Positions 2,683 to 52,923 of a DNA stretch of 64,000 bases are shown one piece after another. The notes beneath the pieces are model-generated. The model was given only the letters and a program-made list of their open reading frames with translations. It ran no database searches and was not told where the DNA came from. The stretch's first letter is position 1. Each line of letters begins with the position of its first letter. A program made the translations under genes and the position numbers. Source of the stretch: Chelydra serpentina (Eukaryota; Chordata; Testudines; Chelydridae). Where the stretch lies: contig JBAIAC010000128.1 of NCBI GenBank assembly GCA_037349315.1, positions 453,091 through 517,090 on the forward strand, read 5' to 3'.

Positions 2683-2755
2683 GCCTGGCTAGCTCAGTTG
2701 GTCGAGCATCCGACTTTTAATCTGAGGGTCCAGGGTTCAAGTCCCTGGTCAGGTG
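2683..2755 (+). tRNA. tRNA-Lys (TTT)
   Basis: The 73-nt sequence has the tRNA-Lys order with anticodon loop CTTTTAA, an intact A box (TAGCTCAGTTGG) and B box (GGTTCAAGTCC). The acceptor stem GCCTGGC pairs with GTCAGGT using G-U pairs. The anticodon stem has one C-T mismatch. No T4 terminator follows closely. It is probably transcribable, but the stem flaw makes function uncertain. Confidence 0.88.
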
Positions 2756-3597
2756 TAGGGGGTATTGTATCCCTCAAGAGGCGGTTCTTCAGTACCCTAC
2801 TAGAATTAATTTGTTTCTTTTCAGGACTTGGGCTTTCCTAGGAATGGCCATTTTCTGCAACTCCTTTTCCTACTGACTCTTCCAAGGCTTCATCTTGCTG
2901 TTGGAAATGACGTGGGAGCCTGTCTTTTGCCGGCTCGCTGCTGTGACTTGAGCGCCAGAGGGGACGTTGGATCCAGACGTCTGGCCATGCCTGGAGTAGG
3001 GAGGGGTGCGAGCTCCATTTCCTCTGAGTCGTGAAGCTGGGCTGCAGCCTGGCCTAGTCACTGGAGCGGCGTTGGTGTTCCCCAGGAATGCTGACGGGCT
3101 GGGCTAAGGGAGGGAGGCTTCATACTCCTCCCTGTCAGTCAGGGCGGAAGAGGAGAGCTGCAAGAGTGGGCAGGATATTGAGCTGGGCCTTCTAACGTTT
3201 ACAGGTTTCTCATAAGCACACAGGGCTCTTAACAGGTACTCAGTACACAGGATTGGCCCGGAAAGTGTGTATTACTCGTGACTGCATTATTCCTGTTTGT
3301 GTATTTCCAATGGCATTTCTGGCTGTGATTTCATTTCGCTTTGTAGAACGGGATTTTCGACTGGAGCCGATATTTTAATTAACCAAAAAAAAGACACAGG
3401 CTCTCCTGTCACAGCAATTACTGCCGAGGCAACGCAATAGCCTTTTCAGCACCTCCAGGCTGGTGATTTGATTCTTTCCATTGCTCCTCTGCAAAGAAGC
3501 CTTTTCCTTAACAAGCCGTTACTTGGATTGCAGACACTGGGCTCTTCCTACAAAGACATTGGCAATGATGAGCAGAGGAGACAAGAGGGACACACTA

Positions 3598-3671
3598 AGG
3601 CACCACTGGGAGTCGAACCCAGGATCTCTTCTTTACTAGACAGGCGCATTAGCCAGCTTAGCCATGGCGCC
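3598..3671 (-). tRNA. tRNA-Thr (AGT), degraded anticodon stem
   Basis: Read on the minus strand, the 74-nt body has acceptor GGCGCCA, loop CTAGTAA and T arm GGTTCGACTCC. The anticodon stem CCTGT against AGAAG has two mismatches, so folding is weakened. The duplicate at 33,870-33,943 has only one mismatch. This copy is likely a decaying gene. Confidence 0.8.
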
Positions 3672-4567
3672 TGCCTATAGAAAAGCTACGCAACCGATGT
3701 ACCTGATGCTCCCAGACAACACGTGCAAATTCCAAACCATTTCCTGCCGCCGTCGAGCTGTCTGGCTCTGCGCACAGAAAGCCACAGCCGAGGTGAGAAC
3801 GACACTCTCTTCATGCTAGCCGCTGTGATTGTACAGTGGTTCCTACGCTGCATTGTGGTCACAGCAACCTCGGCTCCACTCTGAGTAACAGTCACCTTTT
3901 CATCAGCGCCAGACGTGTCATTTCCCGCATTCCCAGACTGAGCCACAAGGAGGCTCTGTCTGTCTTGAACAAGCATTTAAAGGATTTCCCAGGAAGGTCT
4001 TTTCTGTGGAGAAGAAAGAGATCCCAGAAAGGGAGCCCGACAGATCCAGTCAGCTCAGCCAGGAAGAACTGGCAGGCCAGCCAGGAGCTCCTGGTTCCTA
4101 GAAAGGCTCTTCAGCCAGCTCTTTGGAAAGGTCGCTCTCTAGAGGCCTGGCAAGAACCACAGCCGATGCTCGCTGAGAAAGAGACGCCAAACCAGAGCTC
4201 TCCACGGCCTGCAGACATGCAGCTGTTAGGAGCTCTGGGCACAGAGAGGCCCCTGCTAGCGGAAAAAGGCTTTGGCAGAGAGTGACACTCCGGACCTCAA
4301 AGTAGCACCCGGGACCCCCATATTCCCAGCAGTGCTGTGATTCTGATCTGCTTTGTACAGTACCTCGCACAATAGGGGGTCCCAATCTCAGTCATGGTCT
4401 GTGCAGCACCTGGGAGCCCCAATCTCTGTTTCCTGATCACAGGCACTGGGAATTGGTTGAAGGAAAACTTTAGTACCTCAAAGGTTAATGCAGCCCTGTG
4501 CCTGTCCCTGCTGGTTGGCGCTGCTGCTCTCCTAAGGAGTTGGCTTGAACTAACTAAACAGTGCCAA

Positions 4568-4639
4568 TCCCATATGGTCTAGTGGTCAGGATTCCTGGTT
4601 TTCACCCAGGTGGCCCGGGTTCAATTCCCGGTGTGGGAA
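4568..4639 (+). tRNA. tRNA-Glu (TTC)
   Basis: The 72-nt gene has acceptor TCCCATA pairing with TGTGGGA, loop GTTTTCACC with anticodon TTC, and T arm GGTTCAATTCC. It is almost identical to the usual vertebrate tRNA-Glu. Downstream the expected T run is broken (AGTATTTGC), whereas the duplicate at 34,836 has TTTTT at that place. Confidence 0.95.
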
Positions 4640-4949
4640 CAGTATTTGCTGAGAGAGGAGGCAGGCCATGAAAGGAACGGGGAGGGATCCTGTCAGCAGG
4701 GGAGATGGACAGTGTTGGGAGGGGATCGCAGAAGTGGGGGTGGGGGGCAGAGGTCTGGGGGGAGATCAGGTGCTCATCATGCTCCAGCCAGAAGGGAAAT
4801 GAGCAGGAATTCTTGCTGTTCAGCCATGGACACACTTACACAATGGCACGGCAGTGAGTGTGTTGTGGAAGCTGATCTGAGAAAACAATGGGAAATGATC
4901 ACGCAGTGAGAACAGAACTAGAGTGTAGTGAGAAAAGTACATAAAGCCA

Positions 4950-4982
4950 GTAGTTGTGGCCGAGTGGTTAAGGCGATGGACT
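4950..4982 (+). pseudogene. tRNA-Ser 5' half, truncated
   Basis: Thirty-three bases match the 5' half of tRNA-Ser: acceptor GTAGTTG, the D arm with GGCCGAGTGGTTAAGG, and the start of the anticodon stem GATGGACT. The sequence then breaks into a single unit of a 57-bp repeat. The anticodon and 3' half are missing, so no tRNA can be made. The A box survives without a B box. Confidence 0.9.
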
Positions 4983-5048
4983 GTTGCTCTCTGAGAGAGA
5001 TGCTGGGTGCGTTACCCCACGTGGGCACCCAGCGTCACTGTTGCTCTC
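4983..5048 (+). repeat. Single unit of the 57-bp minisatellite
   Basis: One full unit, starting GTTGCTCTCTGAGAGAG, is followed by the first bases of a second unit at 5,040. The same junction in block A copy 2 carries 26 units (35,808-37,300). From here to 5,550 I see only G/C-rich non-coding sequence shared with 37,740-38,390. Confidence 0.88.
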
Positions 5049-5551
5049 AGGGGCTGAGTGAGTCTCACACACACACGAAAACACCCTTAGGGTGAGGTGC
5101 GGGCGGGAGCACAGCCGGCCCCTGCTCACCTAGGGCCGCCCCGCACCTCTTGGGCTGATGGCCATGGCGTCCGCGAGTATGGCTGCTCCCGGCCAGCCAG
5201 GCTCCGCTCCGGCCACAGCAGGCAGCCGGTGACCCAAGGGAGCCCAGCTAGGCTGGGGCTGGGTGCAGTGGGGGATTAGGGGGGGTGGGTGAGAGGAGAA
5301 GCCCAGACCCTGGCAGGAGCTGCACTTGGGGGAGGGGGAAGAGGAGCCACACCGGGGCAGAGAGGAGAGGCCCCGGACCCTGGCAGAAGATGTGCGGCTG
5401 AAGTCCCCGGCTCGGGAGCCCCACCCACCCTACTGGCAGAAGCTGCAGGGCTGAAGCCCTGACCCCACTCTGTGTGGAGCTGGTATCCCCATTTCTCCCG
5501 CCATCACACAGCCATGAATGGATTTAGCCTAGGAGGCAGGGTCAGGATTGG

Positions 5552-5685
5552 CCCCATTTGTCAGGTGGGATCTAGGGCACACAGAGGTGAAGTGACTTTC
5601 CCAAGGCTAAGCAGGGAGTCTGTGGCAGAGCAGAGACTCAAACCCAGAATACCTGAACCCTGTGCCTTAACCACTAGGCAACCTT
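5552..5685 (-). mobile_element. MIR-type SINE fragment
   Basis: On the minus strand the stretch reads as the tRNA-derived head and core of MIR. On the plus strand it shows CCACTAGGCA, AGACTCAAACCCAGA, GTGGCAGAGC, AAGTGACTTTCCCAAGG and CCCATTTGTCAGG in the order expected of a reversed MIR. A matching copy lies at 38,393-38,526. Confidence 0.85.
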
Positions 5686-5859
5686 CCCACCCCAGGAGGG
5701 GGAACTTCCTCTGCCACTTTGAATGTGTGGGTGGGAGCAGCCACTAGACAGAGCTGCCAGGAGGTGGGGAGCAGAGAGAGATGGGAAAAGGGACATGGGT
5801 GGGTGTAGCGGGGTGGTTACCTGCTCCTGCCCGGGAGGGGTTAAAACAGCCCTACAGAG

Positions 5860-6246
5860 GGAGCAGTCAGGGGACATGGAATGGGGGGAGGGGCTGGATA
5901 GGGTGTGGGAGTCCCAGGGGGCCTGTCAGGGGTGGGGGTGTGGCTAGGAGCCAGGGCAGTCAGGGGACGGGGGTTGGATAGTTGGAGGGGTCCCGGTGGG
6001 TGATTAGGGGGTGGGGGGGTCTCTGGAGGGGACGGTCAGGGAACAAGGAGCGGGGGGGGGGTTGGATGGGTGAAGGGTTCGGGGGGGGGCCTGTCAAGGG
6101 CGGGGGTGTGGAGACGGGTCGGGGCAGTCAGGGGACAGGTAGGGGGTAGGGCCCTAGGGAGGCACTTACAGTGGGGGAGTCTCAGGAGGGGGCAGTCAGG
6201 CGACAAGGAGCAGGGAGGTTTAGATAGGGGGTGGGGTCCAGGGGGG
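5860..6246. repeat. G-rich degenerate tandem repeat
   Basis: Imperfect units contain CAGTCAGGGGACA, GGGGGCCTGTCAGGGG and GGTCTCTGGAGGGG. The array continues at 7,250-7,340, past the LTR insertion. Copy 2 holds a longer version at 38,690-39,600. G runs on the plus strand could form quadruplexes. I see no coding support. Confidence 0.8.
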
Positions 6247-6308
6247 CAGTTGTTGTACTCAAAGTACTATGCAGGATCTTTTCAAGGGGATTAAGGCAAA
6301 ATGCCACA

Positions 6309-6314
6309 TTTATT
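6309..6314 (-). terminator. LTR polyadenylation signal AATAAA
   Basis: AATAAA on the minus strand lies 58 bases before the 3' end of the solo LTR. This is where an R/U5 boundary signal is expected. Confidence 0.55.
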
Positions 6315-6558
6315 AGTAATACAGATATCAATCAATACTCTAGCATATGCATATGATATATATATCACACTCATGCACTCACACACACACAGACACAAAC
6401 ACACTCCGTCTTGCTGTTGTTACCAACTGGTTGCTCCCCTTAACTGCACTGGCCAGGTGAGTTAGATGGGGGAGGGGTGGAGCCGGGCTTCTGCCGATCC
6501 GGATCGATGCTCCGATGGTGACAAGACGAGACCCGGGGTCCTTCTGCCAGACACCTCA

Positions 6559-6566
6559 CTTTTATA
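6559..6566 (-). promoter_or_regulatory. LTR TATA box
   Basis: TATAAAAG lies on the minus strand within the solo LTR, about 690 bases from its 5' end on that strand. It is followed 245 bases later by the polyadenylation signal. Confidence 0.55.
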
Positions 6567-7250
6567 GCAGCTTCCCTCTTATGCAAATTCACTCCAGATT
6601 CAAACTCTGGGTCTGTGTCCCTTGGTCTGTGTCCGTTGGTCTTTGTGCTGCTTTTCTCTGGGTGTTGTCCCCAGGCTGCTCAAAGAGGGTGTTACCTAAC
6701 GAAGGTGCTTGCTTCTAATCCCCAGGGCCTTCAATATGTCTGCTCTTCTTTGCCACTTGATTGTTCTTTGCTCTGGCTCCCATCCCCTCTCCAACTGTTG
6801 CAGTGTCTGGAGGTGGGTGTCTTCCAAGCCTCACTCATTCACACCTCATTCAGTCAATGGGGCAATTGATTACAGAGTGGGGGAAGATCTTATCCTACTA
6901 GCAAACAGAAACATGTTTCTTTCTACTTTAACTATACTGTCCTTAGGGGCTATAACATCTAATACAAAGTTCTCTATATAGGGATCTAATACAAAGTTCC
7001 CATATCAAATAGGGATCTAATACAAAATGGGGATCTAATACAAAGTTGTATGAAAATAGAGAGGCACAATGCCAAGTCATATAAATACAAAATAACACAA
7101 TGCAAGAAATAACACAATGCAAGATGCAATGTCATAAAGATAAAGATACTTAATACAAAATGACACAAAGATACTTAATACAAAATGACACAATGCAACA
7201 TCATAAGGATTCATAGAAATACTTAATACAGAGATTTCTCTCTACACAGT

Positions 7251-8110
7251 TAGGGGCAGGGTCCCAGGAGGGAGCAGTCAGGGGACAAGGAGCACAGGGG
7301 CTTGGGGGTTTTGAGGGGGCTGGAAGTGGGAGGGAGTGGATGGGGGCGGGGCTAGGGCAGGGCTCCCTGGGTGCACACCCTAGTGAAATGTGCTGCGCAC
7401 GCCTATGGCTGCTACAGTTATTTCATGGGCTGTCTGGGACGGGGGAAAAGCCGAGTTCACTCCAGGTGGAGGGAAAAAAGGACCCTGAAAATCTCAGGCC
7501 CTCGGGGAAACCCAACCGCTGCTACCAGGGTCTCTGAGGTGCTGGGGATCTGCACGGGACAGGGACTGTGTGAACTGTCCAGGTGGGGAATGAATAACAA
7601 TCTACAGCTAGATCCACCTCATTAAAACCGACACAGGCTAATCATGCTGCAGAGAGACGGGAAACCGGGAGCGATTCTTTGCTGTTCAGCCATAGACACA
7701 GGGACCCAATTGCACCGCAGTGAATGTGCTGGGGAAAGCCGGACTTTACAGGCAGGTGGAAATAGCAGATCCTAGAAACACCTGGAGCTCCCCACCCCAC
7801 TTCTGCCACCAGGGGCAGGGATTGAGCTGTCCACAGAGCCCCTCCCCCACACACACACACCATGGCAGCTCCCCCCAATACAGGGGAGAGGGTTGAGTGT
7901 ATCTCTGCACCCTGAGTCCAGGGCACGACTCTCTCTGACCCACACATAGAATCTGGCCCTGGTGCAAAGTGACCCCTATGAGCCAGCAACCTCCAAGAGA
8001 GCATGTGCGGGGCAGGGGCGGGGAAGGCTTCCAGTGAAGTTTATAAGCCACTGGCTGCTTTGGAAGGAGGCAGGCTCTGAGTGTGAACAGCCAGGTAATC
8101 AGGTCTGTCT
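7251..8110. other. Duplicated non-coding spacer
   Basis: G-rich repeat remnants lead into unique-looking sequence shared with 39,535-40,363. I found no tRNA, exon or mobile element here. Confidence 0.5.
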
Positions 8111-8182
8111 GGGTATGTAGCTCAGTGGTAGAGCGTGTGCTTCGCATGTATGAGGGCCTGGGTTCAATCCCCAGCATCTCCA
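8111..8182 (+). tRNA. tRNA-Ala (CGC)
   Basis: The 72-nt gene has D arm GCTCAGTGGTAGAGC, loop TTCGCAT with anticodon CGC, and T arm GGTTCAATCCC. The acceptor GGGTATG pairs with CATCTCC apart from one mismatch. TTTT follows about ten bases downstream as a pol III terminator. The duplicate at 40,364 has anticodon TGC instead. Confidence 0.92.
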
Positions 8183-8659
8183 GGTTTGCTTTTCACCTGG
8201 CTGCTCTGCTCATGCCCAGCTGGGCTGTGGTCGACCTGTCTCCCTGCACAAGTTTCAATCTGAGCAGTGAGGGCAAAGTGCCAACGGCAGGAGAGCTCTG
8301 GGGGGGTTTCACCAAATGTCCATGCAGCCCAGTGTCCTGTCTCCTGACAGTGGCCAATGCCAGGGGCCCCAGAAGAGGGAATCATCAAGTGACCCATCCC
8401 CTGTTGCCTATTCCCAGCTCCTGGCAAACAGAGGCTAGAGACGCCAGCCTGGCTAATAGCCATTGCTGGCCCTGTCCTCCATGAACGTATCTAGTTCTGT
8501 TTTGAGCCCTGTTCTAGTCTTGGCCTTCACAACATCCTCTGGGAGAAAGCTCCACAGGTCGACTGTTGTCGTGTGACCCCCTTCCCCTCCCCCACCCCCT
8601 CTAAGGCAGCGGGTTTCAAAGTTTTTTTCTGGTGAATGGAGCTGGGCATGAGGGGTTTG

Positions 8660-9030
8660 GGAGGGGCTCATGCCTGGGGCAGGGGGTTGGGGTGCAGGGT
8701 GAAGGCTGCAAGGTGGGGCAGAGAATGAGGGGTTCAGGCTGTGAGGGGGCTCTAGGCTGGGGCATGGAGTTGGGGTGCAGGGTGAAGGCTGCAGGGTGGG
8801 GCAGAGAATAAGGGATTCAGGGTGTGAGGGGGCTCAGGGCTGGGGCAGGGGGTCGGGTTGCAGGGGTGAAGGCTGCAGGGTGGGGCAGAGAATGAGGGGT
8901 TCAGGGTGTGAGGGGGGTCTCTAGGCTGGGGAAGGGGGTTGGGGTGCAGGGTGAAGGCTACAGGGTGGGGCAGAGAATGAGGGGTTCAGCGTGTGAGAGG
9001 GGGCTCTAGGCTGGGGCAGGGGGTTGGGGT
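8660..9030. repeat. 85-bp minisatellite, about four units
   Basis: Units begin near 8,682, 8,768, 8,848 and 8,933 with GGGTTGGGGTGCAGGGTGAA and contain CAGAGAATGAGGGGTTCAGG. Copy 2 of block A has about one unit at 40,676-40,760. The array has therefore expanded or contracted since duplication. Confidence 0.85.
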
Positions 9031-9273
9031 GTGGGAGGGGGTCAGGGCTCTTGGCTGGGGGTTCAGGCTCTGGTGTGCGGCCAGGTATGAGGGTCTTGGG
9101 GTGCAGGAACGGGCTCCTGGTTTGGGGAACTCAAGTCTCAGGCAGGGGATTGGGGCACATGGTTGGGGTGTGGGGTTACCTCGCGCGGCTCCTGGTCAGT
9201 GGAACAACGGGGGCGGGGGGAGTGGTTGGCAGGGAGTCAGGTGTGGGCAGATAGCCTGCCTTAGCCAGAGCCG

Positions 9274-9347
9274 GGCACCATGGCTTAGCTGGTTAAAGCC
9301 CCTGTCTTGTAAACAGGAGATCCTGGGTTCGACTCCCAGTGGTGCTT
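9274..9347 (+). tRNA. tRNA-Thr (TGT)
   Basis: The 74-nt gene has a fully paired anticodon stem CCTGT/ACAGG with loop CTTGTAA, acceptor GGCACCA pairing with TGGTGCT, and T arm GGTTCGACTCC. TTTT lies about a dozen bases downstream. The 3' flank from about 9,355 resembles a CR1 LINE tail. Confidence 0.94.
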
Positions 9348-9354
9348 TGGTGTG

Positions 9355-9560
9355 TCCCTTTTGGGGCACCTGGTATTGGCTACTGTGAGAAGAAAAGATA
9401 CAGAACTAGATGGACCTTTGGTCTAGCCCAGTCTGGCTGTTCCCATGGTTTAAATTACACTCCCAGGCACTGATAACAGAGTTATTGAAAGTATCAGAGG
9501 CGGAGCCGTGTTAGTCTGTATCTGTATCTGTGTAGCCGTGTTAGTCTGGATCTGCCATGT
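9355..9560 (+). mobile_element. CR1-like 3' tail and repeat scrap behind tRNA-Thr
   Basis: The text GGGGCACCTGGTATTGGC and AGCTAGATGGGCC-type words (here AACTAGATGGACCTTTGG) resemble the 3' end of sauropsid CR1 LINEs as I remember them. The same tail follows the Thr bodies at 23,682 and 41,016 and, in part, 31,204. A second repeat word, GCCGTGTTAGTCTG, appears twice at 9,507-9,555. Confidence 0.5.
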
Positions 9561-10266
9561 TATATCTGGATCTTGGGCTCACCAACAGGTCCTGTAGTCA
9601 CTGGGTCAGTGATCTGCCCCCCCGCATAGGGGTGTTTCCTTGCCTGGGTGAATGAGACCCCAGACTGTTGTCCCCATCCCCTGGGGTCCCATCACTCCCC
9701 TACCCAAAGACAGCTTAGTCCCCACAAGTGCTCGCAAGGCGGGGTGAGCGGCTCCTGGCGCTCCACTCCCCAGCTCCACCAGTTCTGCTCTCTCCTCCCC
9801 CGGTCTCCTGAGACTTCAGGCCTCAGCGCTGGGCTGGACCCAAGCCTGGCAGGGACTGGCAACACCCAGATACCTTCTGCCTGGGAGAGGCTCCCCACAG
9901 AGCCCACCTCGCGCTGCTGTAGGAGGGAGCCCGCAATCAGAAGCCAAAGCTCCAAACATTCCTCCCATCCTGCGTCAGACAGGGCAGCCGGATCAGCACC
10001 TTCACGGGAAGGCAGCAACAGAGGCAAGGAGACCGAGCTTCCACCTCCACCAGGTGAGAACGCAGCCATCTGGGAGGGACCTGCTATCTGCCCAGAGGCC
10101 TTTATTCCTCCAGCCTGCGGGGACAGAGGGGAGGTCAGGAAGTTGCCCCTTCAATCCCCCACACAAAAAGGCCCTTCTTAGGAAAGGCAAAATCCTGAAG
10201 GGAAAAAGTAACATCAAAGAGGACTCCCAAGAGACACATTTTTTAAGATGCTGGTGAATAGCTTAT

Positions 10267-10339
10267 CACCTGAGCAGGGACTTGAACCCTGGACCCTCAG
10301 ATTAAAAGTCTGATGCTCTACCAACTGAGCTAGCCACGC
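10267..10339 (-). tRNA. tRNA-Lys (TTT)
   Basis: The 73-nt minus-strand body has perfect anticodon (TCAGA/TCTGA) and T stems and loop CTTTTAA. The acceptor stem has two mismatches (positions 3-70 and 7-66). The duplicate at 41,981 has more damage. An (ATC)n run lies at 10,627-10,645. Confidence 0.87.
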
Positions 10340-11269
10340 TCGTGAAACCAATAAAGCAAGTTGGTGTGAAGGAGAAACTATGCAAGAAAAAGGAAGCCGG
10401 AAACAAGGGAAAACCTACTGCTCTTTCTCTCTCTTCCCAGCCCTAGCCTGGCTGGTATTATTGCTGGTTAAAAAGAGGGGAAAGTATCTGCATCTACCAG
10501 CCTTTTATAGCTGTACAAGAATCAGGCACAATACAGAGGTACCCATCTGCAGGTGCTGAATGGTTGGATTGGCTAATGCAACCTGTAGAAGTCCATGGCA
10601 CACTGGGATAGAAAGTCAACTGTACATCATCATCATCATCATCCTCATTTCAAAGGGAGAATGATAGGAAGGTTCACAATGGACTAAGTAGCTACATACA
10701 AAGCTCATTGGCTATTCATGCTCATTAGTGTCACTGTGGATTGAGCTTTTTTCCTCTCTGTCTCCCTTCTCGAACATCAGCAGTACCTTGAGCAGGTGTG
10801 GGATTGACGCCATGTACACACATTTGCAGAGGGAAAATAGAGTTGAGGTTTGTTATTTCTCACGTCCATATATTATTTATTTATTTAAAAAAACATTTTT
10901 GCTGTTAACAAGCATGTTACTTCTGGAGACACAAATCCACAGTTTGAGAACTGCAAAACTAAGAATCTCTGATGGAATCATCTAGACTGAGCACTGAGTC
11001 CCTTAGGGTAGATAGAAAGATTAACCTAAATAATCTATACAGAAGCCTGCGGAACCCCATAAGATTGGGTCCCTAAGCCATGAACTATTAGAACTCCTTT
11101 ACAAAACTTTTCTTAAACATTACATGAATATACTGTCTCATACTATAGAATTAGAATGTATAATCCCTATTCCATGATGAGCTATAACGTATCTTAATTC
11201 AAATGATCTTTAGATAGGGTTTTTTCCACAACAAGCCGATTTAAATTTAAAAAGTCATTGATTTTTATC
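10340..11269. other. AT-richer spacer without a gene
   Basis: Up to 10,799 it is the right end of block A. Beyond that the sequence is unique here. I see no tRNA, splice-flanked exon or terminal-repeat element. Confidence 0.5.
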
Positions 11270-11641
11270 CTCGCTGACAGCGGGGCATGGTGCGGGGTGT
11301 GGGGGAAGGGTTGGTCCCCAGCTGGAGCGAGGCAGGGGCCAGAGACAAGAGCAGAGCTGGAGCGAGGCAAAGTGCCGGAGTTCTCACGCTGGTCCCTTCT
11401 GACCTTAAAGGCTCTGAGTCTAACAGGGAGAGGGAAGTAAAGAGAGAATTTAAAAAACAACCAAACATTGTAATACGAGGGTGACTCCAACAGCTCACTG
11501 GATAGTCACGCCCCTTTCTTCCTCCACTGGGGGTTTAACGACCTGCTGGGATCTGGGACATTAATTCTCTCATTCCATTGGTAATCTGATACCATGTGAC
11601 TGAAATTAAACCAATTCCCAGGCAGGAAAACCTCACACCCC

Positions 11642-11713
11642 TGCATTGGCTGGGAATCGAACCCACGTCAACTGCTTGGAGGGCAGCTCTGCTCACCACT
11701 ACACCACCAATGC
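11642..11713 (-). tRNA. tRNA-Gly (TCC) with C33
   Basis: The 72-nt body has acceptor GCATTGG pairing with CCAATGC and T arm GGTTCGATTCC. The anticodon loop is CCTCCAA, so the anticodon is TCC, but the nearly universal T33 is C. TTTT follows on the minus strand within about 15 bases. The C33 change is shared with the copies at 25,674 and 49,685. Confidence 0.88.
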
Positions 11714-12658
11714 ACCTGGTGCAAGCACCTCTCCTGTGTGCCACTGATGCTTGGCAAATGACTCACCCCACAGCGCTCAGGAGCTGGCTGGAGAGGCCGG
11801 AGGCAGCCTGTCAGCTGTGAGCAGAGACAGGTCCCCAGAGTGACTGACAGGTGGGGACCTGGGCTCCACATCCCAGCCTGAGGTGGCTCCAGCCCCATCT
11901 CTGCCCTCAGAGAAGGGAAATGAAAATCAGTGACCCTAATGGCAAACGTGACCCCCGAAGGAAGGAGACAGCTCCTTCGAACGCACAGTTTGGGTTGTTC
12001 CTGCTACACAATGAGGGTTTGTTGCTGCTGCTGATTCCAGTCCTTGGGCTCTGCCCGGACAAGGAAGGATTCAGGCTGTCTCTCAAGGGAAGCAGGGAGA
12101 TGATTTTTTTGACGGCTGCCTCGTCTGAAGGGTGTTTGTCGGTCACCTTCTAATCTAGTGGGTGCTGGGTAGACGCAGGCAGCCCCCGCTCCTAACTCTG
12201 CAGTTACTTAGATGCAGACACAACCAGCTCTATGGCTGGTGACCCTACAGAGACTCTGCTGCTGATCATGAACTAGGAGCACGTCACCTTTGATTTGATT
12301 TGATTTTGTCAGAGGTTCCTGCCACCTCCAGGAGAGTTTTCAGTCCCAATGGCAACCTACTTACCCAATGTAACACAAACGAGTCCCTTCCTCCCGAGTG
12401 GACGTGGGTCTTCTTCTTCTGCACATTGTAGCCCATGTGCCTTCATATTATACCTTTGTTTAATTGATGAAAACATAAACTAGACACTTGGAGGATTGGA
12501 ACTGATTTCAGCTGAGGGACGTGTTTGCTGGGTTTTTATGCATTTGCACAGGAAAACGTTGAGTGTTTCCATTCATTTCAGTCATCCCTATTCAATGGAA
12601 TCCTGAACATAATGGAAATAGATATGCAATTGTTTTTGTTAAAGGAACACATTTGTAA

Positions 12659-12730
12659 GGGGGGCATTTGGATTTGAACCAAGGACCACTTGATCTGCAG
12701 TCAAGCACTCTACCACCGAGCTATACCCCC
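12659..12730 (-). tRNA. tRNA-Cys (GCA)
   Basis: The 72-nt body has acceptor GGGGGTA/TGCCCCC, loop CTGCAGA with anticodon GCA, and B box GGTTCAAATCC. The T stem has one mismatch and the discriminator reads C rather than the usual T. The inverted copy at 24,658 lacks both flaws. Confidence 0.88.
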
Positions 12731-12886
12731 CATGCTATTTAAAGGTGCGTCAGTGATCTTAAGGATCTTGAAGGACAGGCCCTGCCTCAGCGAGCTCCTT
12801 TTCCATTCCCAGACCACAGTGGTTTTAAAAATGGGCTTTGATTAAACTTTATATCTACATGTAGACACCACAGCTTGCACACCCAC

Positions 12887-12918
12887 CGTCAAACACTCTA
12901 CCACTGAGCTATACCCCC
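12887..12918 (-). pseudogene. tRNA-Cys 5' half between direct repeats
   Basis: The minus strand reads GGGGGTATAGCTCAGTGG and on to the 5' side of the anticodon stem, then stops matching. The half gene lies between two ~50-bp direct repeats (12,839-12,889 and 12,929-12,985), both containing TGATTAAAC and CAGCTTGC. Confidence 0.8.
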
Positions 12919-12989: not shown

Positions 12990-13664
12990 TTCTCCCGCTG
13001 ACATAGCTCCCGCCTCTCCGGGAGGTGGGTTAACTACACAAATGGGACAGCTCTCTCCCATCCGCTTAGAGCATCTTCATTAGTTATGAATAAGTTGGAA
13101 ATAACCTGCCGAATGGACAGTAACCAATGCATCGAATATGGCTGTGTCTGCATTCAATAGGGGTAACTGGCCAGTGAACAGACTGTTTTGAATAACATGT
13201 ACCTCAGTTCGGATGCAGTGTCACTGACCCCGGATTGGGACTGGTCCCAACAGGGAATTTGTTTTAGCAATTTCACACGTTGCCAATTCACTCCTGCTTG
13301 GTTATACTCTAAGGGGAATGCCAGTTAGATGTTTATTACTAATCAGTTTAGGCAACATTCTCTCTCTTTGTTTTTTAATGTTTTCCAATGAGTTGTTATG
13401 GTAATTGCTATCTAACTCTGCTAAGCAGGACAAAATATTTATTTAAGAAATTTTGACTTCATATTGTTTCCTGAAATTAGTTTATTAATTTTTATTTGTG
13501 TTTGGTTAAAAAGTTGAGCAATGCCATGCACATGTGAAATGGTATATTGTTTCTGCAGTAGCCAACCCCTTACCACCATGCATTATAGTTTCAGAGACAG
13601 TTTCTGCTGCCCAGTGGTCAAAATAGCTAATGGTTTGTTTTATATCTATGTCCCAAATAGATAC
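12990..13664. other. Spacer without a gene
   Basis: The sequence is AT-rich and unique in the window. I see no tRNA, exon or element. Confidence 0.5.
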
Positions 13665-21925: not shown

Positions 21926-22003
21926 AACCGCTGGGTAGATTTTTTTAAAGGCACAGGCAAACAGTCCCCGTAATAAAATTCACCTAATTCCAACCAGGTC
22001 ACC

Positions 22004-37300: not shown

Positions 37301-37326
37301 GGGGAGGGGCAGATCCCTGTTGCAGA

Positions 37327-41015: not shown

Positions 41016-41089
41016 GGCACTATGGCTTAGCTGGTTAAAGCCCCTGCTTTGTAAACAGGAGATCCTTGGTTTGACTCCCAGTGGTGCTT
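41016..41089 (+). tRNA. tRNA-Thr (TGT)
   Basis: The duplicate of 9,274, 74 nt, loop TTTGTAA, one anticodon-stem mismatch and a weaker B box (GGTTTGACTCC). TTTT lies a dozen bases downstream, followed by the CR1-like tail. Confidence 0.9.
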
Positions 41090-41980
41090 TGGTGTGTCCC
41101 TTTTGGGGCACCTGATATTGGCTACTGTGAGAAGAAAAGATACAGAACTAGATGGGCCTTTGGTCTAGCCCAGTGTGGCTGTTCCTATGGTTTAAATTAC
41201 ACTCCCAGGCACTGATAACAGAGTTATTGAAAGTATCAGAGGGGGAGCCATGTTAGACTGTGTCTGGATCTGCCGTGTTAATTCTGGATTTGGGGCTCAC
41301 CAACATGTCCCATAGTCACTGGGTCAGTGATCTGCCCCCCCCCATAGGGGTGTTTCCTTGCCTGGGTGAATGAGACCCCAGACTGTTGTCCCCATCCCCT
41401 GGGGTCCCATCACTCCCCTACCCAAAGACAGCTCAGTCCCCACAAGTGCTCTCAAGGGGTGAGCGGCTCCTGGCGCTCCACTCCCCAGCTCCACCAATTC
41501 TGCTCTCTCCTCCCCCGGTACCCTGATACTTCAGGCCTCAGCGCTGGGCTGGACCCAAGCCTGGCAGGGACTGGCAACACCCAGATACCTTCTGCCTGGG
41601 AGAGGCTCCCACAGAGCCCACCTCGCGCTGCTGTAGGAGGGAGCCCGCAAACAGAAGCCAAAGCTCCAAACATTCCTCCCATCCTGCGTCAGACAGGGCA
41701 GCCGGATCAGCACCTTCACGGGAAGGCAGCAACAGAGGCAAGGAGACCGAGCTTCCACCTCCACCAGGTGAGAACGCAGCCACCTGGGAGGAACCTGCTA
41801 TATGCCCAGAGGCCTTTATTCCTCCAGCCTGCGGGGACAGAGGGGAGGTCAGGAAGTTGCCCCTTCAATCCCACACCGAAAAAGGCCTTTCTTAGGAAAG
41901 GCAAAATCCTGAAGGGAAAAAGTAACATCAAAGAGGACTCCCAAGAGACACATTTTTTAAGATGCTAGTGAATAGCTAAT

Positions 41981-42053
41981 CATCTGACCAGGGACTTGAA
42001 CCCTGGACCCACAGATTAAAAGTCTCATGCTCTACCAACTGAGCTAGCCATGG
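41981..42053 (-). tRNA. tRNA-Lys (TTT), degraded
   Basis: The duplicate of 10,267. Loop CTTTTAA and T arm are intact, but the outer two anticodon-stem pairs are lost (TGAGA/TCTGT) and the acceptor is altered (CCATGGC). It is likely decaying. Confidence 0.78.
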
Positions 42054-43606
42054 TCATGAAAACAATAAAGCAAGTTGGTGTGAAGGAGAAACTATGCAAG
42101 AAAAAGGAAGCAGGAAACAATAGGGAAAACCTACTGCTCTTTCTCTCTCTTCCCTGCCCTAGCCTGGGGCTGGGCTCATATTATTGCTGGTTAAGAAGAG
42201 GGGAAAGTATCTGCATCTACCAGCCTGTTATAGCTGTACAAGAATCAGGCACAATACAGAGGTACCCATCTCCGAGTGCTGAATGGTTGGATTGGCTAAT
42301 GCAACCTGTAGAAGTCCATGGCACACTGGGATAGAAAGTCAAGTGTACATCATCATCATCATCATCAATCATTTCAAAGGGAGAATGATAGGAAGGTTCA
42401 CAATTGACTAAGTAGCTACATACAAAGCTCATTGGCTATTCATGCTCATTAGTGTCCCTGTGGATTGAGCTTTTTTCCTCTCTGTCTCCCTTCTCGAACA
42501 TCAGCAGTACCTTGAGCAGGTGTGTGGTTCCGTCAGATGCCCGCTTAGATTTCAGGATGCTGGGAAGGTGTTTGGAGACTGTGAAAATCAAAGCTCTGTC
42601 CAGTGACTCATAGCAAAATGTGGGCATGTTCCCACCGTGCACCTTTAATCCCAGGACCGAGATGTGAGGGTTGGGCACGGTGGGCGTTGAAGCCGTTTAT
42701 GACTCTACTATTATGTTTCAAGTGTCAGCAGGAGGCTGGGCTGGAGGGCAGGTCAGGCCCGAGGGGAATGGCGGGGCAACTGCAAAGAAAAACACCGACT
42801 CTTCGGATGACTGGACACTCTGCGCCTAATTAATGCCACAGCATCGTATCCCCTTTGGCAGAGCTGCTGTGAGGAGCATCTTCAGCGACGAAGGCAGGTC
42901 CCCGCAGCAGTGGCTCTCCGGGGTTCTGTGGCCATTAAACGTCTGGCCATGGTGGGAAAACATCGTGAGTCAGCAGCAGAGCGGAGCCGGGCATGGGCTG
43001 GGATCTGAGACGTGGATGGGCCTTGATTCCATCCTGCTGGTCTCTGATTGAGGGCAGGGAAAGGGTGTTACTGGGGAAGTGGGAGCAGTTGTGTTTCGTG
43101 TTCAGGCTTTGGTATCGGTTCCTGCAGGTTTCTCGTGAGCACACAGGGACGTTAGCAGGTGCTCTCAATGCAGGATTGGCCCAGATACCATCAGTACCGG
43201 ATTTACCATGGTGCCAGGTACATGCTCTGAAGGGGCCCAACCCGGCTGCTCTCTCCACCCCCGGCTCTCTCCTGCGGAGGCAGAAGCTCCTCCCCAGCCT
43301 CTTCCCCCAGCGTGCCACGTACCCGCCCCTCCCCCCTCCCTCTCCCTCTCCCTCTCCCTGCCGCTGAACAGCTGTTTACTGGCGCAAGGGAGGGGGAGGA
43401 GTGGAGCCACATCCCAAAGAGATCCATTTTTCCTGGATCTGAGATTTAACTACAAAAAGAAGAAGGCCTCAGGGTGCCAGATGGAGGAGCAGGCTGGGGC
43501 TAGGGCTGCTAAGGGAGCCAAAGTAGCAGGTTTTCTGTATTGTTTCCCGCCCTCTTTTTCTTGACTAGTTTCTCTTCTGCACCTATCTTGCCATTTTCTT
43601 ACGTGA

Positions 43607-43679
43607 GCCTGGCTAGCTCAGTTGATCGAGTATCAGACTTTTAATCTGAGGGTCCAGAGTTCAAGTCCCTGGTCAGGTG
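43607..43679 (+). tRNA. tRNA-Lys (TTT)
   Basis: The third-copy relative of 2,683, 73 nt. The anticodon stem TCAGA/TCTGA is perfect here. The T stem has one mismatch (CAGAG/CCCTG), which also changes the B box. Acceptor GCCTGGC/GTCAGGT. Confidence 0.86.
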
Positions 43680-43986: not shown

Positions 43987-44061
43987 GGCACCATCGCTTA
44001 GCTGCCTAAAGCACTTGTCTAATTAAACAGAAGATCCTGGGTTCAACTCCCAGTGGTGCCT
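43987..44061 (+). pseudogene. tRNA-Thr-like, 8-base anticodon loop
   Basis: The body follows Thr (GGCACCA, GGTTCAACTCC, TGGTGCC) but the anticodon loop is CTAATTAA, one base too long, so no Thr anticodon is defined. D-arm bases are also changed. Confidence 0.85.
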
Positions 44062-45086: not shown

Positions 45087-46300
45087 GCGGACAGGGTTAA
45101 AACCTGTGGTGCTTATGGGCCACCACATGCATAGACCTCCCCTCAGGCAGGGGACTTATAGACCCTGGGTCACCTGCCCCCTATAGCCTGGATCTCTGAC
45201 ACACCCAGGCCCAACTGGGTAGCCGCTCTTGCAATCCCTCTATGGGAGAATTGGGAGCCATACTCTCGAGTGGCAATATTTCAGAGGTGGATACAGACTT
45301 TGTGACAGAAAGCCTGGGGCTTGTCTCTGCACCTCCCCTATCCGGAAGAACAGAGGCTGAGGGGGTACAAGGGCAAAAGGTGACAAACAGGCCCGAACAG
45401 GAGAGATTTTCTTTCCGTTAGAATTCATCAAAATCTCATCCCTGAAAAGCTCGGAAGGGGTGTAGCTCAGCCCCCAACCACTCAGCGCGCTGCCGTAGAT
45501 AATCCTGCCACAGAGACTGCTGGCTCCCTGCTCCTCTCCCTCCCCGATGGGGATTTTCACATGTAGAAAGGAGGGTTTGGGGAGCAAAGATTGAGAGCGT
45601 GTCGGGGGGCTCAAAGGATGGGCAGCGCTCTAGGCTCTGCTTGTGAGATCCTGACATAGGGGGCGGTGAGGGAGGAAGGATTGTAGATTTGTGGCATCTG
45701 ACCTGCACTCTGCAGAGGAGGTGATTAGTGAAGGGGCATTTATGATTCCTCCCCCCTCAGTGTCCCCTGGGATGGAATTCTAGGGTCCATAGGGCCAAAG
45801 AAGTGGGCAAAGCCATTGGGTTAATGAAAACCAGTGCCCCAGGTGAGGCTCAAATTCACAACCTCAGCATGTCTCCGCTCAGCACTGACGTATAAGTACT
45901 GTGCGCTAACCCACTGCACCACTGGAGCCCTTGCTCAGGGCTCTTCTCCCCGTCCCCCAGGCTGACAGAGGCAAGGATTGACTCCAAACAATGCTAAGTG
46001 GAGTTGAGAGAGGGGAGAGCCAAGTGCTGGTACTTGATGGGCTGGGCTCTTCTTAAGGGGCCCAGGCACCATTTGACCCTTTTGGTCTTCGCTGTGCAAC
46101 AACCGAGCTGATTGAGACTCAATTTGGAGTCTTGCTGCAGACCAACAGATCTGAGATCACTGCTCACCAGGTCTCAGCATTAGTCCTGCTTGGGGACAGT
46201 GTCTCTGATGTATAAACTGCCTAGTCCGCACTAGCAGTGAGGCTCCCGCACTAACAGCTGGAATCATTGAGACACGTGTCAGTGGAGGTACCCAGACATG
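45087..46300. repeat. Duplication block D, copy 2 (inverted)
   Basis: Reverse complement of 13,665-14,862. Beyond it, 46,310-46,800 holds GC-rich sequence (GGCGCCGGTGGGTGC, then a poly-G/C stretch) with no gene. Confidence 0.9.
45835..45928 (-). tRNA. tRNA-Ile (TAT) with 20-nt intron
   Basis: The 94-nt minus-strand copy of 14,024. Exon stems are kept (CAGTA/TGCTG). The 20-nt intron differs from copy 1 at three positions. TTTT follows on the minus strand. The acceptor has one weak pair (GCTCCAG/CTGGGGC). Confidence 0.9.
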
Positions 46301-46809: not shown

Positions 46810-46875
46810 GCCTGGCTAGCTCAATTGGTAGAGCGTCAGACTTTTAATCTGAGGGTTCAAGTCTGTGATCAGGCA
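46810..46875 (+). pseudogene. tRNA-Lys pseudogene with T-arm deletion
   Basis: The 5' part through TCTGAGGG is Lys with perfect anticodon stem and CTTTTAA loop. About seven bases of variable loop and T stem are then missing before GTTCAAGTC, so no T arm forms. Confidence 0.88.
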
Positions 46876-49404: not shown

Positions 49405-50240
49405 ATAGGTCGCACTAGATGATCACGCTGGTCCCTTCTGACCTTAAAGGCTCTGAGTCTAACAGGGAGAGGGAAGTAAAGGAAAAAGTAAAAAAAAAAT
49501 TAACGAAACATTGTAACACGAGGGTGACTCCAACAGCTCACTGCATAGTCCCGCCCCTTTCTTCCCCCACTGGGTGTTTAACGACCTGCTGGTATTTGGG
49601 ACATTAATTCTCTCATTCCATTGATAAACTGATACAACATCCCTGCAATTAAACCAATTCCCAGCCAGGAAAACCTCACACCCCTGCATTGGCTGGGGCT
49701 TGAACCCAGGTCAACTGCTTAGAGGGCAGCTCTGCTCACCACTACACCACCAATGCACCTGGCAAAAGTCCCTCTCCTGTGTGCCACTGATGCTTGACAA
49801 ATGACTCACCCCCCACAGCGCTCAGGAGCTGGCTGGAGAGGCTGGAGGCAGCCTGTCAGCTGTGAGCAGAGACAGGTCCCCAGAGTGACTGACAGGTGGG
49901 GACCTGGGCTCCACATCCCAGCCTGAGGTGGCTCCAACCCCATCTCTGTCCTCAGAGAAGGGAAATGAAAATCAGTGACCCTAATGGCAAACGTGACCCC
50001 CGAAGGAAGGAGACAGCTCCTTTGAACGCACAGTTTGGGTTGTTCCTGCTACGTACTGAGGGTTTGTTGCTGCTGCTGATTCCAGTCCTTGGGCTCTGCC
50101 CGGACAAGGAAGGATTCAGGCTGTCACTCAAGGGAAGCAGGGAGATGATTTTTTTGACGGCTGCCTTGTCTTAAGGGTGTTTGTCGGCCACCTTCTAAGC
50201 TAGTGGGTGCTGGGTAGACGCAGGCAGCCCCCGCTCCTGG
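49405..50240. repeat. Duplication block C, copy 3 (partial)
   Basis: Direct match to 11,380-12,190, containing the Gly-type tRNA but not the Cys gene. A poly-C run lies upstream at 49,307-49,319. Confidence 0.9.
49685..49756 (-). tRNA. tRNA-Gly body with TCT (Arg) anticodon
   Basis: The 72-nt body is Gly-type: acceptor GCATTGG/CCAATGC, stem GCTGC/GCAGT and a paired T arm. The loop is CCTCTAA, so the anticodon is TCT, which reads arginine AGA. C33 is shared with the other two Gly copies. TTTT follows on the minus strand. The T loop reads TTCAAGC. Confidence 0.86.
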
Positions 50241-50432: not shown

Positions 50433-50518
50433 GGTCCAGTGGCACAAAGGGTTAATGCGCAGTACTTATAGGGCAGTGATGCATGGCGTGATTGTGAGTT
50501 CAAGCTTCATCTGGAGCA
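50433..50518 (+). pseudogene. tRNA-Ile (TAT) pseudogene
   Basis: It aligns with 14,024 (TCCAGTGGC, GTACTTATA, TTGTGAGTT, CTGGAGCA) but is eight bases shorter. The 3' side of the anticodon stem is lost in the shortened intron region. Confidence 0.85.
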
Positions 50519-50519
50519 C

Positions 50520-51765
50520 TGGTTTTGGGAGATCTGACAGCAGCCTTCAGTGGAGTGAAAGGAGAAACCCCCAGCGCTGCACTGAGCTCCAGGCTGGTTC
50601 ATCGGGCGTGGGGGGAATTGACTTCTCAGCTGCTGAGCAGGGAGCCAGGGCACTTCTCTGGGAATGAGGGTTCCCAGCCTGACCCAGCTGCTTCCTTGCC
50701 CCCTGGGGCCCTGCCGGCTGAGACTGTCCCTGAGGCCAGGCAGCGGCTCAGTGAGCTTTCCTGGGGTCGCTGGCAGGGCAGGAATATCCCACGCTAAGGG
50801 CCTGAGTTCAGCCATGGGGAAAGGCAGCAGCTTTGCTCCCCCCTTCTAAACAGAGCTCCCAGGCCGTTCCCAACCAGGGGTCCAGAGCCCCCCCGGGGGG
50901 GGGGGCAGTGAGCAGGTTTCAGGGGTGGATTTGCCAAACTAAACCAGCCAGCAGGGCCGGCGTTAGACAGTCGTTGTGGCACGGGTGGGCTGTGGAGTTT
51001 TTATACCATGTTGGGCGGGGGCCACAGAAAGAACAAGGCTGGGAACCCGGCTCCAGGGGATCCTGGAGAATAAAGACTCCGTCCCGCTCAGTGCTGCCAA
51101 CGCTCCTGATTTTGCCTTGAGTGTGATGAGAATTGTTGTTTTCCTTAAAGCCCCAGCTCCTGGAGTCAGGGGGAGACGATGATTTCAGCCTTCGCTCTTA
51201 AAGACACAGGACGTTTCTAGCCCTTGTGGCTGTGGAGAAAGATTCACAATGTCTCCCCCCGTGCGCCCTAAAGGCTCATCAAGCAGAAGGCAAATAAAAA
51301 GATCCCAAATCTATTAATTTTACACAATCTCATGATTTCAAAGCCCATCTCGTGATTTTCGGTGAGCCTGGCTCAGGGTTTTGAACGTTTGGGGTTGGTC
51401 GTTCTGCAGCCTGAGAGCTGGGCCCCCTCCTTCCCATCCAGCGCCCCCCAGACTGTCCTAAAGCATTAACTCTTTCCTCTCCGTCACGCCGCCATAACGC
51501 AGCTGGGAATCCCCATTCCTAGACGGGCTTTTCCACACACAGTGAATCCCCCACAGGGCTGAGTCCCCACAGGGCTGTTCCGGGGGCTCCAGTCCCCCAG
51601 CCCAGGACAGACGGGGCAGTAACCTCACCTCACCCCTCTGTGACTCCCAGGGGCCCTGCAGGGACAGCAGCTCCATGCTGGGCTCTAGGCCCCCCCAAAG
51701 CACCTGGGGGGAGGGGGCAGTTCAACTCCCATGTCAGGGGGCTCCTGCTGCATGGAGATGACCAG
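50520..51765. other. Spacer without a gene
   Basis: GC-rich to about 51,060, with a poly-G run near 50,893 and GCAGGTTTCAGGGGTGG (a word also at about 57,985). No exon is supported. Confidence 0.45.
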
Positions 51766-51769
51766 ATGC

Positions 51770-52340
51770 TCACAGCCCCTCCCCCTCACACTGACTCCCC
51801 CATGGACCCTCCCCCTCACACTGACTCCCCCATGGACCCTCCCCCTCACACTGACTCCCCCATGGACCCTCCACCTCACAGCCCCTCCCCCTCACACTGA
51901 CTCCCCCATGGACCCTCCCCCTCACACTGACACCCCCATGGACCCTCCCCCTCACAGCCCCTCCCCCTCACACTGACACCCCCATGGACCCTCCCCCTCA
52001 TACTGACACCCCCATGGACCCTCCACCTCAAAGCCCCTCCCCCTCACACTGACACCCCCATGGACCCTGCCCCTTACAGCCCCTCCCCCTCACAGCCACT
52101 CCCCTCATAGACACCCCATAGCCCTCCCCTCATAGCCCCTCCCCTCCACACTGACACCCCCATGGACCCTCCCCCTCACAACCCCTCCCCCTCACACTGA
52201 CATCACCATGGACCCTCCCCCTCACAGCCCCTCCCCCTCACACTGACACCCCCATGGACCCTCCCCCTCACAGCCCCTCCCCCTCACACTGACACCTCCA
52301 TGGACCCTCCCCCTCACAGCCCCTCCCTTCACACACGCAG
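51770..52340. repeat. C-rich minisatellite, ~30-bp and 46-bp units
   Basis: Units CACTGACTCCCCCATGGACC plus CTCCCCCTCA repeat, later with an inserted CAGCCCCTCCCCCT. All frames stay open in part. Confidence 0.9.
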
Positions 52341-52851
52341 GGACTTGTTCGCTGGGCTCTGACATTACAAACCCAGGGGGGAGGTTTCTGAGGATTTACT
52401 CCCTGAGCCCCTCCCCCTCTCACCGCTCCCCTGAGTGCAGGGGGCTGGGCTCAGGCAGCCAGTTTCACCCAGGGATTTCCCAGCCCAGGCCCCCGAGTCT
52501 CCTCTGCCCGTATCTACCAGTGACACTGCGCGTGGGCGGCGGCTACAAGGGGCTCGGGGAGGCTGAACCTCCCCAAACGGAGCAAGAAATGCTGGTGGGA
52601 CGCACCCCCCTTGGAGGGGGGCTGGGCCGCTGCCTTGGGACAGACCCTCCCGAGGAGTGGGGGAGCCACCGGCACTCAGACCTCACGCACAGGCCTGGCT
52701 CTCGCCTTCAGCCCAGGCAGCCAGAGGGGCCGGGGAGCTCCCTGGCAGTCCCCCACCTCAGCCACCTCTTGCCTCACGGCCTCGGCTCCTGGCGCTCTGC
52801 TGGTCGCCCCCTTGCTTGCAGGCCCAGAGCAAAAAGAAACAAGCACCTGCC
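52341..52851. other. GC-rich spacer
   Basis: Open frames here are composition-driven. No tRNA or exon signal is present. Confidence 0.45.
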
Positions 52852-52923
52852 TAGCAGAGGATGGTTTCGATCCATCGACCTCTGGGTTATGGGCCCAGCA
52901 CGCTGCCGCTGCGCCACTCTGCT
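52852..52923 (-). tRNA. Initiator tRNA-Met (CAT)
   Basis: The 72-nt minus-strand gene keeps every stem: AGCAGAG/CTCTGCT, CTGGG/CCCAG with loop CCCATAA, and ATGGATCGAAACCAT. Only one D-loop base departs from the usual vertebrate initiator. TTTTT follows about 20 bases downstream. It is the best initiator gene in the window. Confidence 0.97.

Follow-up and report, generated by a model that had tools for sequence, protein, structure and literature searches.

Why certain vertebrates carry tRNA genes by the thousand is an open question, and it is raised anew by an array of tRNA-derived loci at the end of a nuclear contig of the turtle Chelydra serpentina. The window that we analysed is a stretch of 64,000 nucleotides, bases 453,091-517,090 of contig JBAIAC010000128.1 (C128, 517 kb), which stops at the right edge of the window; the assembly (GCA_037349315.1) comprises 2.28 Gb in 806 contigs. 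A sequence-only reading of this window had described a dense array of mixed tRNA isotypes, an observation that our analysis confirms, and had interpreted it as repeated blocks showing a decay series and the birth and death of tRNA genes, an interpretation that our results support. Judging from the sequence, we consider it probable that the window forms one edge of a very extensive segmental-duplication domain bearing tRNA genes in the turtle nuclear genome, and that a substitution hotspot centred on these genes stems from germline transcription by RNA polymerase III (Pol III).

The Rfam tRNA model (RF00005) gave 27 matches in the window at its gathering threshold. With permissive filters, 29 bodies fit the cloverleaf of nuclear tRNA genes at 29.0 bits or more (top score 68.4 bits) and 20 of them reach 50 bits, so that the array does not consist of a few low-scoring hits. 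Weaker matches were seen at 15,019, 38,464 and 50,433 (27.0, 21.7 and 21.0 bits). ARAGORN made 27 calls, 25 of which agree with Rfam matches; the calls at 60,979 and 62,269 lie inside a G+C-rich minisatellite and were taken as false. A BLAST comparison of the 93 tRNA loci of the contig with the window added four degraded, near-full-size bodies (15,287, 30,038, 30,486 and 32,632), six fragments (4,081, 4,950, 12,888, 29,279, 34,349 and 35,777), of which three are weak, and one copy resembling a short interspersed element (SINE) at 5,623, while the reversed window gave no match to the 93 loci at an equal cut-off. The weaker Rfam matches and BLAST together thus contribute six full-size relics and six fragments. 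In total the window holds 41 tRNA-derived loci, 35 full-size or nearly so and 6 partial, in addition to two SINE-like loci. They span 2,683-52,923 on both strands, exactly the end coordinates and the two-strand arrangement given before; of the 38 loci counted then (32 full-size and 6 partial) the partial number stands, and the full-size number rises to 35.

Isotypes were assigned by eye against what we take to be the vertebrate tRNA consensus. Among the 29 Rfam bodies we read seven Thr, five Lys, three Gly, two each of Glu, Ala, Cys, Ile, initiator Met (iMet) and Val, and one each of Asn and Gln; with Phe, present as a relic, and Ser, present as half-genes, these 11 become the 13 isotypes previously proposed. 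We did not accept the Pro, Arg, Tyr and Ile(AAT) calls of ARAGORN as true isotypes because by eye their bodies are those of Thr, Gly, Ile and Thr, respectively; its Gln(TTG) at 40,363 was rejected for its Ala body. The graded series from intact bodies at 68.4 bits down to half-genes is equally as described.

The arrangement of these loci points to how they arose. When the 100 kb to the left of the window on the same contig were included (164 kb together), 61 further Rfam tRNA matches were found. Within the 164 kb, 76% of the sequence is present at least twice in stretches of 300 nt or more; the figure for the window alone is 59%, which bears out the repeated multi-isotype blocks of the sequence-only reading. 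Self-alignment gave 227 direct and 196 inverted matches, including many in which one minisatellite is paired with itself out of register. The matches vary in length, so they do not describe the head-to-tail, single-length unit of a macrosatellite. The longest extends over 10.6 kb at 96.5% identity. The order Lys-Thr-Glu-Ser half-Ala-Thr-Lys found at 2.7-10.3 kb recurs unchanged at 32.6-42.0 kb, where a Gln gene and a Val relic are additional and the 57-bp minisatellite has grown to about 26 units, and the left flank of the block was copied too (-2,541 to 1,009 corresponds to 28,991-32,541). Blocks of up to 10.6 kb carrying differing isotypes have thus been copied repeatedly and in both orientations, within this contig and on others. 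Since the copies share flanks, segmental duplication accounts for them and retroposition does not; the copying may have been driven by unequal recombination or by replication-based copying at these repeats.

The genome contains 1,324 occurrences of a core pattern of the Thr family (29 nt, 24 fixed bases, anticodon left free) and 157 of a Gly core; neither pattern was found when reversed. The contigs concerned are unplaced on chromosomes, and positions were listed for 100 cores of each kind. A 331-bp Thr locus including flanks has at least 40 copies at 94% identity or more among the best candidates scored. Among the contigs measured, most of those that carry Thr copies have lengths of 0.1-5.6 Mb. 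The long contigs C24, C30, C59, C9 and C31 have their listed Thr copies close to one end, whereas C27 has a Gly copy and C57 a Lys match in the interior. When ten copy-bearing contigs were each sampled internally over 1.2 kb, homologues of the 164 kb covered 96-100% of the sample in seven cases, 51% in one and 0-9% in two. Of seven contigs picked by number, one sample was N and the other six were covered to 95%, 80%, 51% and, three times, 0%; three chromosome-interior samples gave 0-10%. Part of this cover may be due to ordinary dispersed repeats. A crude extrapolation from 5 Thr cores, 2 Gly cores and 90 tRNA matches per 164 kb gives a domain of about 43 Mb (Thr) or 13 Mb (Gly), and hence about 7,000 to 24,000 loci. 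From these sequence counts the tRNA domain is probably megabases long, and the window holds but a minor portion of a tRNA expansion at the scale of the genome, not visible from the window alone. The Thr cores on C11 (about 0.55-1.33 Mb) point alternately in the two directions, successive forward copies being some 56-86 kb apart, and resemble a tandem macro-repeat.

The duplicated copies allowed the divergence of tRNA bodies to be compared with that of their flanks, in 91 pairs within the 164 kb. Young pairs were defined by a flank divergence of up to 0.06, and 22 disjoint pairs qualified, with flanks differing by 1-6%. The bodies of these young copies diverge no less than their flanks: the body was the more diverged in 19 of the 22 (sign test, p = 0.0009). 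Non-CpG differences numbered 72 in 1488 body positions vs 297 in 11456 flank positions (Fisher, 6e-6), whereas CpG sites differed to a similar degree (27/148 and 115/654) and were commoner in bodies (148/1,636 vs 654/12,110 in flanks). CpG deamination as the sole cause was therefore rejected. A sliding window showed a single peak formed by the body and the 20 nt upstream, the window from -20 being higher in 21 of the 22 pairs, whereas windows clear of the gene and of these 20 nt were higher in only 5-13 of 19-22 pairs. The body was the less diverged part in 31 of the 38 pairs whose flank divergence exceeded 0.10; these pairs are not mutually independent. Old bodies less diverged than their flanks and young bodies not so point to past constraint on the lineages and none visible in recent copies, a pattern in line with the birth and death of genes suggested earlier.

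Selecting pairs by low flank divergence could itself depress the flanks, and pairs were therefore selected on one flank and compared on the other. In the two such selections, the body differed at 102/1567 (6.5%) vs 205/5638 (3.6%) in the held-out flank (higher in 14 of 21 pairs, sign test p = 0.19) and at 107/1707 (6.3%) vs 232/5933 (3.9%) (18 of 23, p = 0.011). For positions -20 to -1 the values were 41/392 (10.5%; 18 of 21, p = 0.0015) and 54/443 (12.2%; 19 of 23, p = 0.0026). In one Thr family, taken as 38 of 40 rows (the window copy and 39 fetched copies, less the long-branch rows L022 and L025), distinct non-CpG changes per site amounted to 0.62 at -20 to -1, 0.34 at -60 to -21 and 0.24 in the body, compared to 0.15 at -290 to -61 and 0.14 downstream. 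A TTTT run within 20 nt of the 3' end was present at 40 of the 93 loci vs 7.9% of random positions. According to a passage in PMC8113476 citing Thornlow 2018, tRNA genes suffer transcription-associated mutagenesis with raised mutation in their immediate flanks. The hotspot pattern seen here fits such mutagenesis acting in copies whose bodies would no longer be protected.

Several results weigh against this reading. The body excess in the held-out comparisons is weaker than the upstream excess. In a global alignment of the 22 pairs, far positions differed at 869/12047 and the body at 99/1635, with the body higher in 14 of 22 (Wilcoxon, p = 0.66); three pairs whose homology stops within the flank hold 441 of the 869 far differences, and without them the values are 428/10414 and 85/1422. 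In the Thr family, the minisatellite beyond -290 is just as variable (0.42 distinct changes per site), and the body vs all far sites gave p = 0.086. When 89 body differences from 21 of the 22 pairs were sorted (one pair was skipped, having no isotype group of three), 57 were private derived changes, 3 were neither private nor shared, and 29 were alleles present in other copies, as ectopic conversion would give. Strand asymmetry was not seen in the 57 private changes (G>A 13, C>T 10), and 53 of the 93 loci have no TTTT within 20 nt.

Non-Thr anticodons are carried by 75 of the 1,324 Thr cores: base 35 is changed in 55 (27 TAT, 20 AAT and 8 others) and base 36 in 20. The variable-loop base 47, which is not proven neutral, is changed in 15 Thr cores with an intact anticodon, so that in this family anticodon bases change as often as the variable-loop base. 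The base-35 events are not independent since 17 of the 55 are TAT copies clustered in the last 1.55 Mb of contig C24. The shifted classes comprise Thr bodies with Ile, Pro or Ala anticodons and Gly bodies with an Arg anticodon. Among fetched Thr bodies, three with TAT scored 52.8-61.4 bits (33.5 for a fourth that is truncated where the fetched stretch stops), and bodies with CGG and TGC scored 65.2 and 50.5 bits; these TAT, CGG and TGC bodies are well-formed predicted tRNAs with a foreign anticodon. The four fetched Thr cores with a TCT or TCC anticodon are degraded, a single one reaching the gathering score (31.3 bits), and three Gly bodies with TCT scored 41.0-55.1 bits.

Could these loci be something other than duplicated genes? 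Turtles carry tRNA-derived SINEs, and the loci at 5,623 and 38,464 appear SINE-like. A view of every body as a dispersed, retroposed element is nevertheless extremely unlikely: homology is not confined to the element and continues into non-tRNA flanks genome-wide (at least 94% over 331 bp in the 40 scored copies), duplicated blocks reach 10.6 kb, tRNA-Ile has an intron, terminators exceed chance and the isotypes are many. Nor are the copies likely to be uncollapsed haplotypes or misjoins. The division of the assembly into 806 contigs and the listed Thr copies near the ends of C24, C30, C59, C9 and C31 would be in keeping with an assembly artefact, but most aligned copies are several per cent apart and occur in both orientations and in varied contexts within one 164-kb stretch, and we give this explanation a very low probability. 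Genome-wide copy counts may still include haplotype duplicates.

The origin of the hotspot is less settled. The gene-centred excess could reflect ectopic gene conversion between tRNA genes in place of mutation, as suggested by the 29 shared alleles, by old bodies more alike than their flanks and by low non-CpG consistency indices in the body and near upstream region (0.42-0.53 vs 0.65-0.76 in the outer flanks; minisatellite 0.50). Against this, 57 of the 89 differences are private, and distinct changes, not just repeated ones, are also raised, most strongly upstream of the body. Conversion as the whole explanation is possible but rather doubtful to us; it is more likely, on the sequence patterns above, that the upstream peak would be due mainly to transcription, and that conversion would add to the differences in the body. 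A related question is whether the array is kept for its dosage, for example as a tRNA reserve for the oocyte or early embryo. The many isotypes with intact, high-scoring bodies, the surplus of TTTT terminators and a hotspot suggestive of germline transcription would suit such a role, and zebrafish maternal tRNA isodecoders are reported, in the passages concerned, to derive from highly repetitive regions (PMC11417395). However, young copies show no visible constraint, degraded copies are many, and Thr bases 35 (55 changes) and 36 (20) change at least as often as base 47 (15; neutrality unproven). Selection for dosage thus seems unlikely.

We favour a scheme in which segmental duplication made the copies, and many of them would be, or would recently have been, active Pol III templates in the germ line, and this activity could turn them into mutation hotspots. 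Translation would then be supplied by a minority of intact copies together with genes elsewhere. One candidate working housekeeping gene is locus L076 (contig C142, 1,637,045-1,637,474), a Thr(TGT) gene with a body unlike that of the Thr family of the array and, at 75.4 bits, the top of 63 scored tRNA matches. A bolder version, which we think improbable, is that this turtle, in parallel to zebrafish but independently, has acquired a domain tens of Mb in size. Its roughly ten thousand tRNA loci would be active in the germ line or in early embryos and mutated by their own transcription, and the unconstrained array would keep yielding, and would once have amplified, well-formed anticodon-shifted tRNAs that perhaps mistranslate in oocytes.

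The closest known system is the tRNA domain on the long arm of zebrafish chromosome 4. Zebrafish has 8,676 predicted tRNA genes, 60% of them on chromosome 4, heavily methylated and mostly inaccessible in early embryos (PMC11574265). Nuclear tRNA genes are extremely numerous in both systems, cover many isotypes and lie in repeats, and many of them are apparently unneeded. They differ in that the turtle is an amniote and its blocks are mosaic and inverted, and in that the zebrafish arm has reported maternal 5S rRNA clusters, whereas RF00005 is the sole Rfam family at gathering score in the turtle 164 kb and 5S rRNA was hence not found there at that score. Together, PMC11574265 and PMC11417395 frame the two functional alternatives for the turtle array. 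The human tRNA macrosatellite at 1q23.3 (7.3-kb unit, 9-43 copies; PMC4041453) likewise places tRNA genes within large duplicated GC-rich sequence, but it is tandem and confined to a single locus, whereas the turtle array is mosaic, spread over many contigs and includes over a thousand Thr cores; the regularly spaced copies on C11 and C24 are its nearest match. The Arabidopsis SYY cluster is also a redundant tRNA gene array, differing as a plant array of two isotypes in tandem with measured expression (PMC12308677). Known tRNA anticodon shifts combine the body of one isotype with the anticodon of another (PMC3923123), as here; in the turtle they arise inside amplified copies, with the Thr-body TAT form present 17 times at one contig end.

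Published tRNA counts of turtles are 8,499 for Mauremys mutica (PMC9098631), 2,089 for Platysternon (PMC6522511), 1,595 for Pelochelys (PMC10620421) and 687 for Chelydra at a score threshold of 65 (PMC7718744). In the passages concerned these are annotation totals and arrays are not described. Among the papers listed by our search of the open-licence literature, which were mitochondrial papers, genome reports and unrelated work, we found no description of turtle tRNA arrays. New here are the scale and the mosaic build, young copies that lack visible constraint and carry a hotspot centred on the gene, and bodies with shifted anticodons, one of which has been amplified. Annotation totals such as that of Mauremys mutica may reflect segmental duplication and not decoding capacity. 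With more than 1,000 copies of one tRNA core and datable flanks, constraint, mutation and anticodon change become measurable per gene, and if the hotspot stems from transcription, germline Pol III activity would be readable from sequence without RNA data.

Table 1. tRNA-derived loci, SINE-like loci and duplicated blocks of the window (bits, Rfam RF00005 score; per cent, identity).
Feature	Position	Strand	Evidence
tRNA-Lys(TTT)	2683-2755	+	55.4 bits
tRNA-Thr(AGT), degraded	3598-3671	-	37.8 bits; twin at 33,870
Thr-like fragment, 40 nt	4081-4120	-	BLAST 80%, weak
tRNA-Glu(TTC)	4568-4639	+	64.5 bits; twin at 34,836
tRNA-Ser 5' half, breaks in anticodon arm at start of 57-bp minisatellite sequence	4950-4982	+	33 nt, 100%
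SINE-like, twin of 38,464	5623-5688	-	BLAST 98%
tRNA-Ala(CGC)	8111-8182	+	57.0 bits
tRNA-Thr(TGT), at least 40 flank-including copies genome-wide counting itself	9274-9347	+	67.0 bits
tRNA-Lys(TTT)	10267-10339	-	56.1 bits
tRNA-Gly(TCC)	11642-11713	-	50.8 bits
tRNA-Cys(GCA)	12659-12730	-	60.7 bits
tRNA-Cys 5' half, 31 nt, ends in anticodon arm	12888-12918	-	BLAST 100%
tRNA-Ile(TAT), 20-nt intron (by ARAGORN)	14024-14117	+	50.4 bits
tRNA-Phe relic	15019-15091	+	27.0 bits
tRNA-iMet relic	15287-15346	-	BLAST 75%
tRNA-iMet(CAT)	16042-16113	+	47.7 bits
Thr body, Pro anticodon CGG; 5 such cores genome-wide counting itself	23682-23755	+	63.0 bits
tRNA-Cys(GCA)	24658-24729	+	64.9 bits
tRNA-Gly(TCC)	25674-25745	+	58.0 bits
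tRNA-Val(AAC)	26137-26209	-	57.2 bits
Ala-like fragment	29279-29308	-	BLAST 87% over 31 nt, weak
tRNA-iMet relic	30038-30106	-	BLAST 80%
tRNA-Asn(GTT)	30288-30361	-	68.4 bits
tRNA-iMet relic	30486-30557	+	BLAST 86%
tRNA-Thr(TGT)	31204-31277	-	63.5 bits
tRNA-Lys relic	32632-32701	+	BLAST 89%
tRNA-Gln(CTG)	33035-33105	+	54.0 bits
tRNA-Thr(AGT), degraded	33870-33943	-	44.5 bits
Thr-like fragment, twin of 4,081	34349-34388	-	BLAST 80%, weak
tRNA-Glu(TTC)	34836-34907	+	61.7 bits
tRNA-Ser 5' half preceding 57-bp minisatellite	35777-35807	+	BLAST 97%
tRNA-Val relic	37327-37398	+	29.0 bits
SINE-like, excluded from tRNA gene count	38464-38529	-	21.7 bits
tRNA-Ala body	40364-40435	+	52.7 bits
tRNA-Thr(TGT)	41016-41089	+	49.1 bits
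tRNA-Lys(TTT), degraded	41985-42050	-	41.2 bits
tRNA-Lys(TTT)	43607-43679	+	52.6 bits
Thr body, anticodon loop altered (ARAGORN reads AAT)	43987-44061	+	45.3 bits
tRNA-Ile(TAT)-like, long form like 14,024	45835-45928	-	40.1 bits
tRNA-Lys with deletion, 66 nt	46810-46875	+	39.7 bits
Gly body, Arg anticodon TCT; 6 of 100 listed Gly cores (of 157) are TCT	49685-49756	-	56.0 bits
tRNA-Ile relic	50433-50518	+	21.0 bits
tRNA-iMet(CAT)	52852-52923	-	58.4 bits
Multi-isotype block	1-10800	+	direct repeat at about 31,500-42,500 with insertions and gaps; 89-96% where aligned, 2,384-2,858 only 76%
Gly-Cys block	11274-12776	-	inverted copy 24,613-26,127; partial copy 49,423-50,238; 94%
Ile(TAT) block	13664-14851	+	inverted copy 45,089-46,287; 94%

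The window also contains other repeats and protein-coding sequences. The tRNA-Ser 5' halves, about 31-33 nt long and 97-100% identical to an intact copy, adjoin the 57-bp minisatellite at 4,950-5,048 and 35,777-37,301, and this half is also present in locus L086 on contig C134. A 36-bp tandem repeat with 98% match occupies two duplicated places (18,229-18,590, 10.1 units; 28,775-29,064, 8.1 units), and the G+C-rich minisatellite that misled ARAGORN (60,227-62,563; 2.3 kb, period 38-39 bp) lies close to the contig end. A Pfam scan covered 10 of the 76 open reading frames (ORFs) of the window, or parts of them; seven had no match and three matched a Harbinger-type DDE transposase, a Myb/SANT-like domain and a C2H2 zinc finger. 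The open transposase ORF (+) and the Myb/SANT-like ORF (-) lie at 19,272-22,853 with about 2 kb between them, a pairing typical of an autonomous PIF/Harbinger element. The best 120 of 1,802 matches to the transposase (19,302-20,438) are all from turtles, the top ones, at 86%, including Chelydra and Mauremys. Motif searches of ORFs of at least 110 aa in the 164 kb found the exact finger motif in one, the C2H2 zinc-finger gene fragment at 53,590-54,222 (-), and one reverse-transcriptase-like ORF located 71.3-72.8 kb left of the window.

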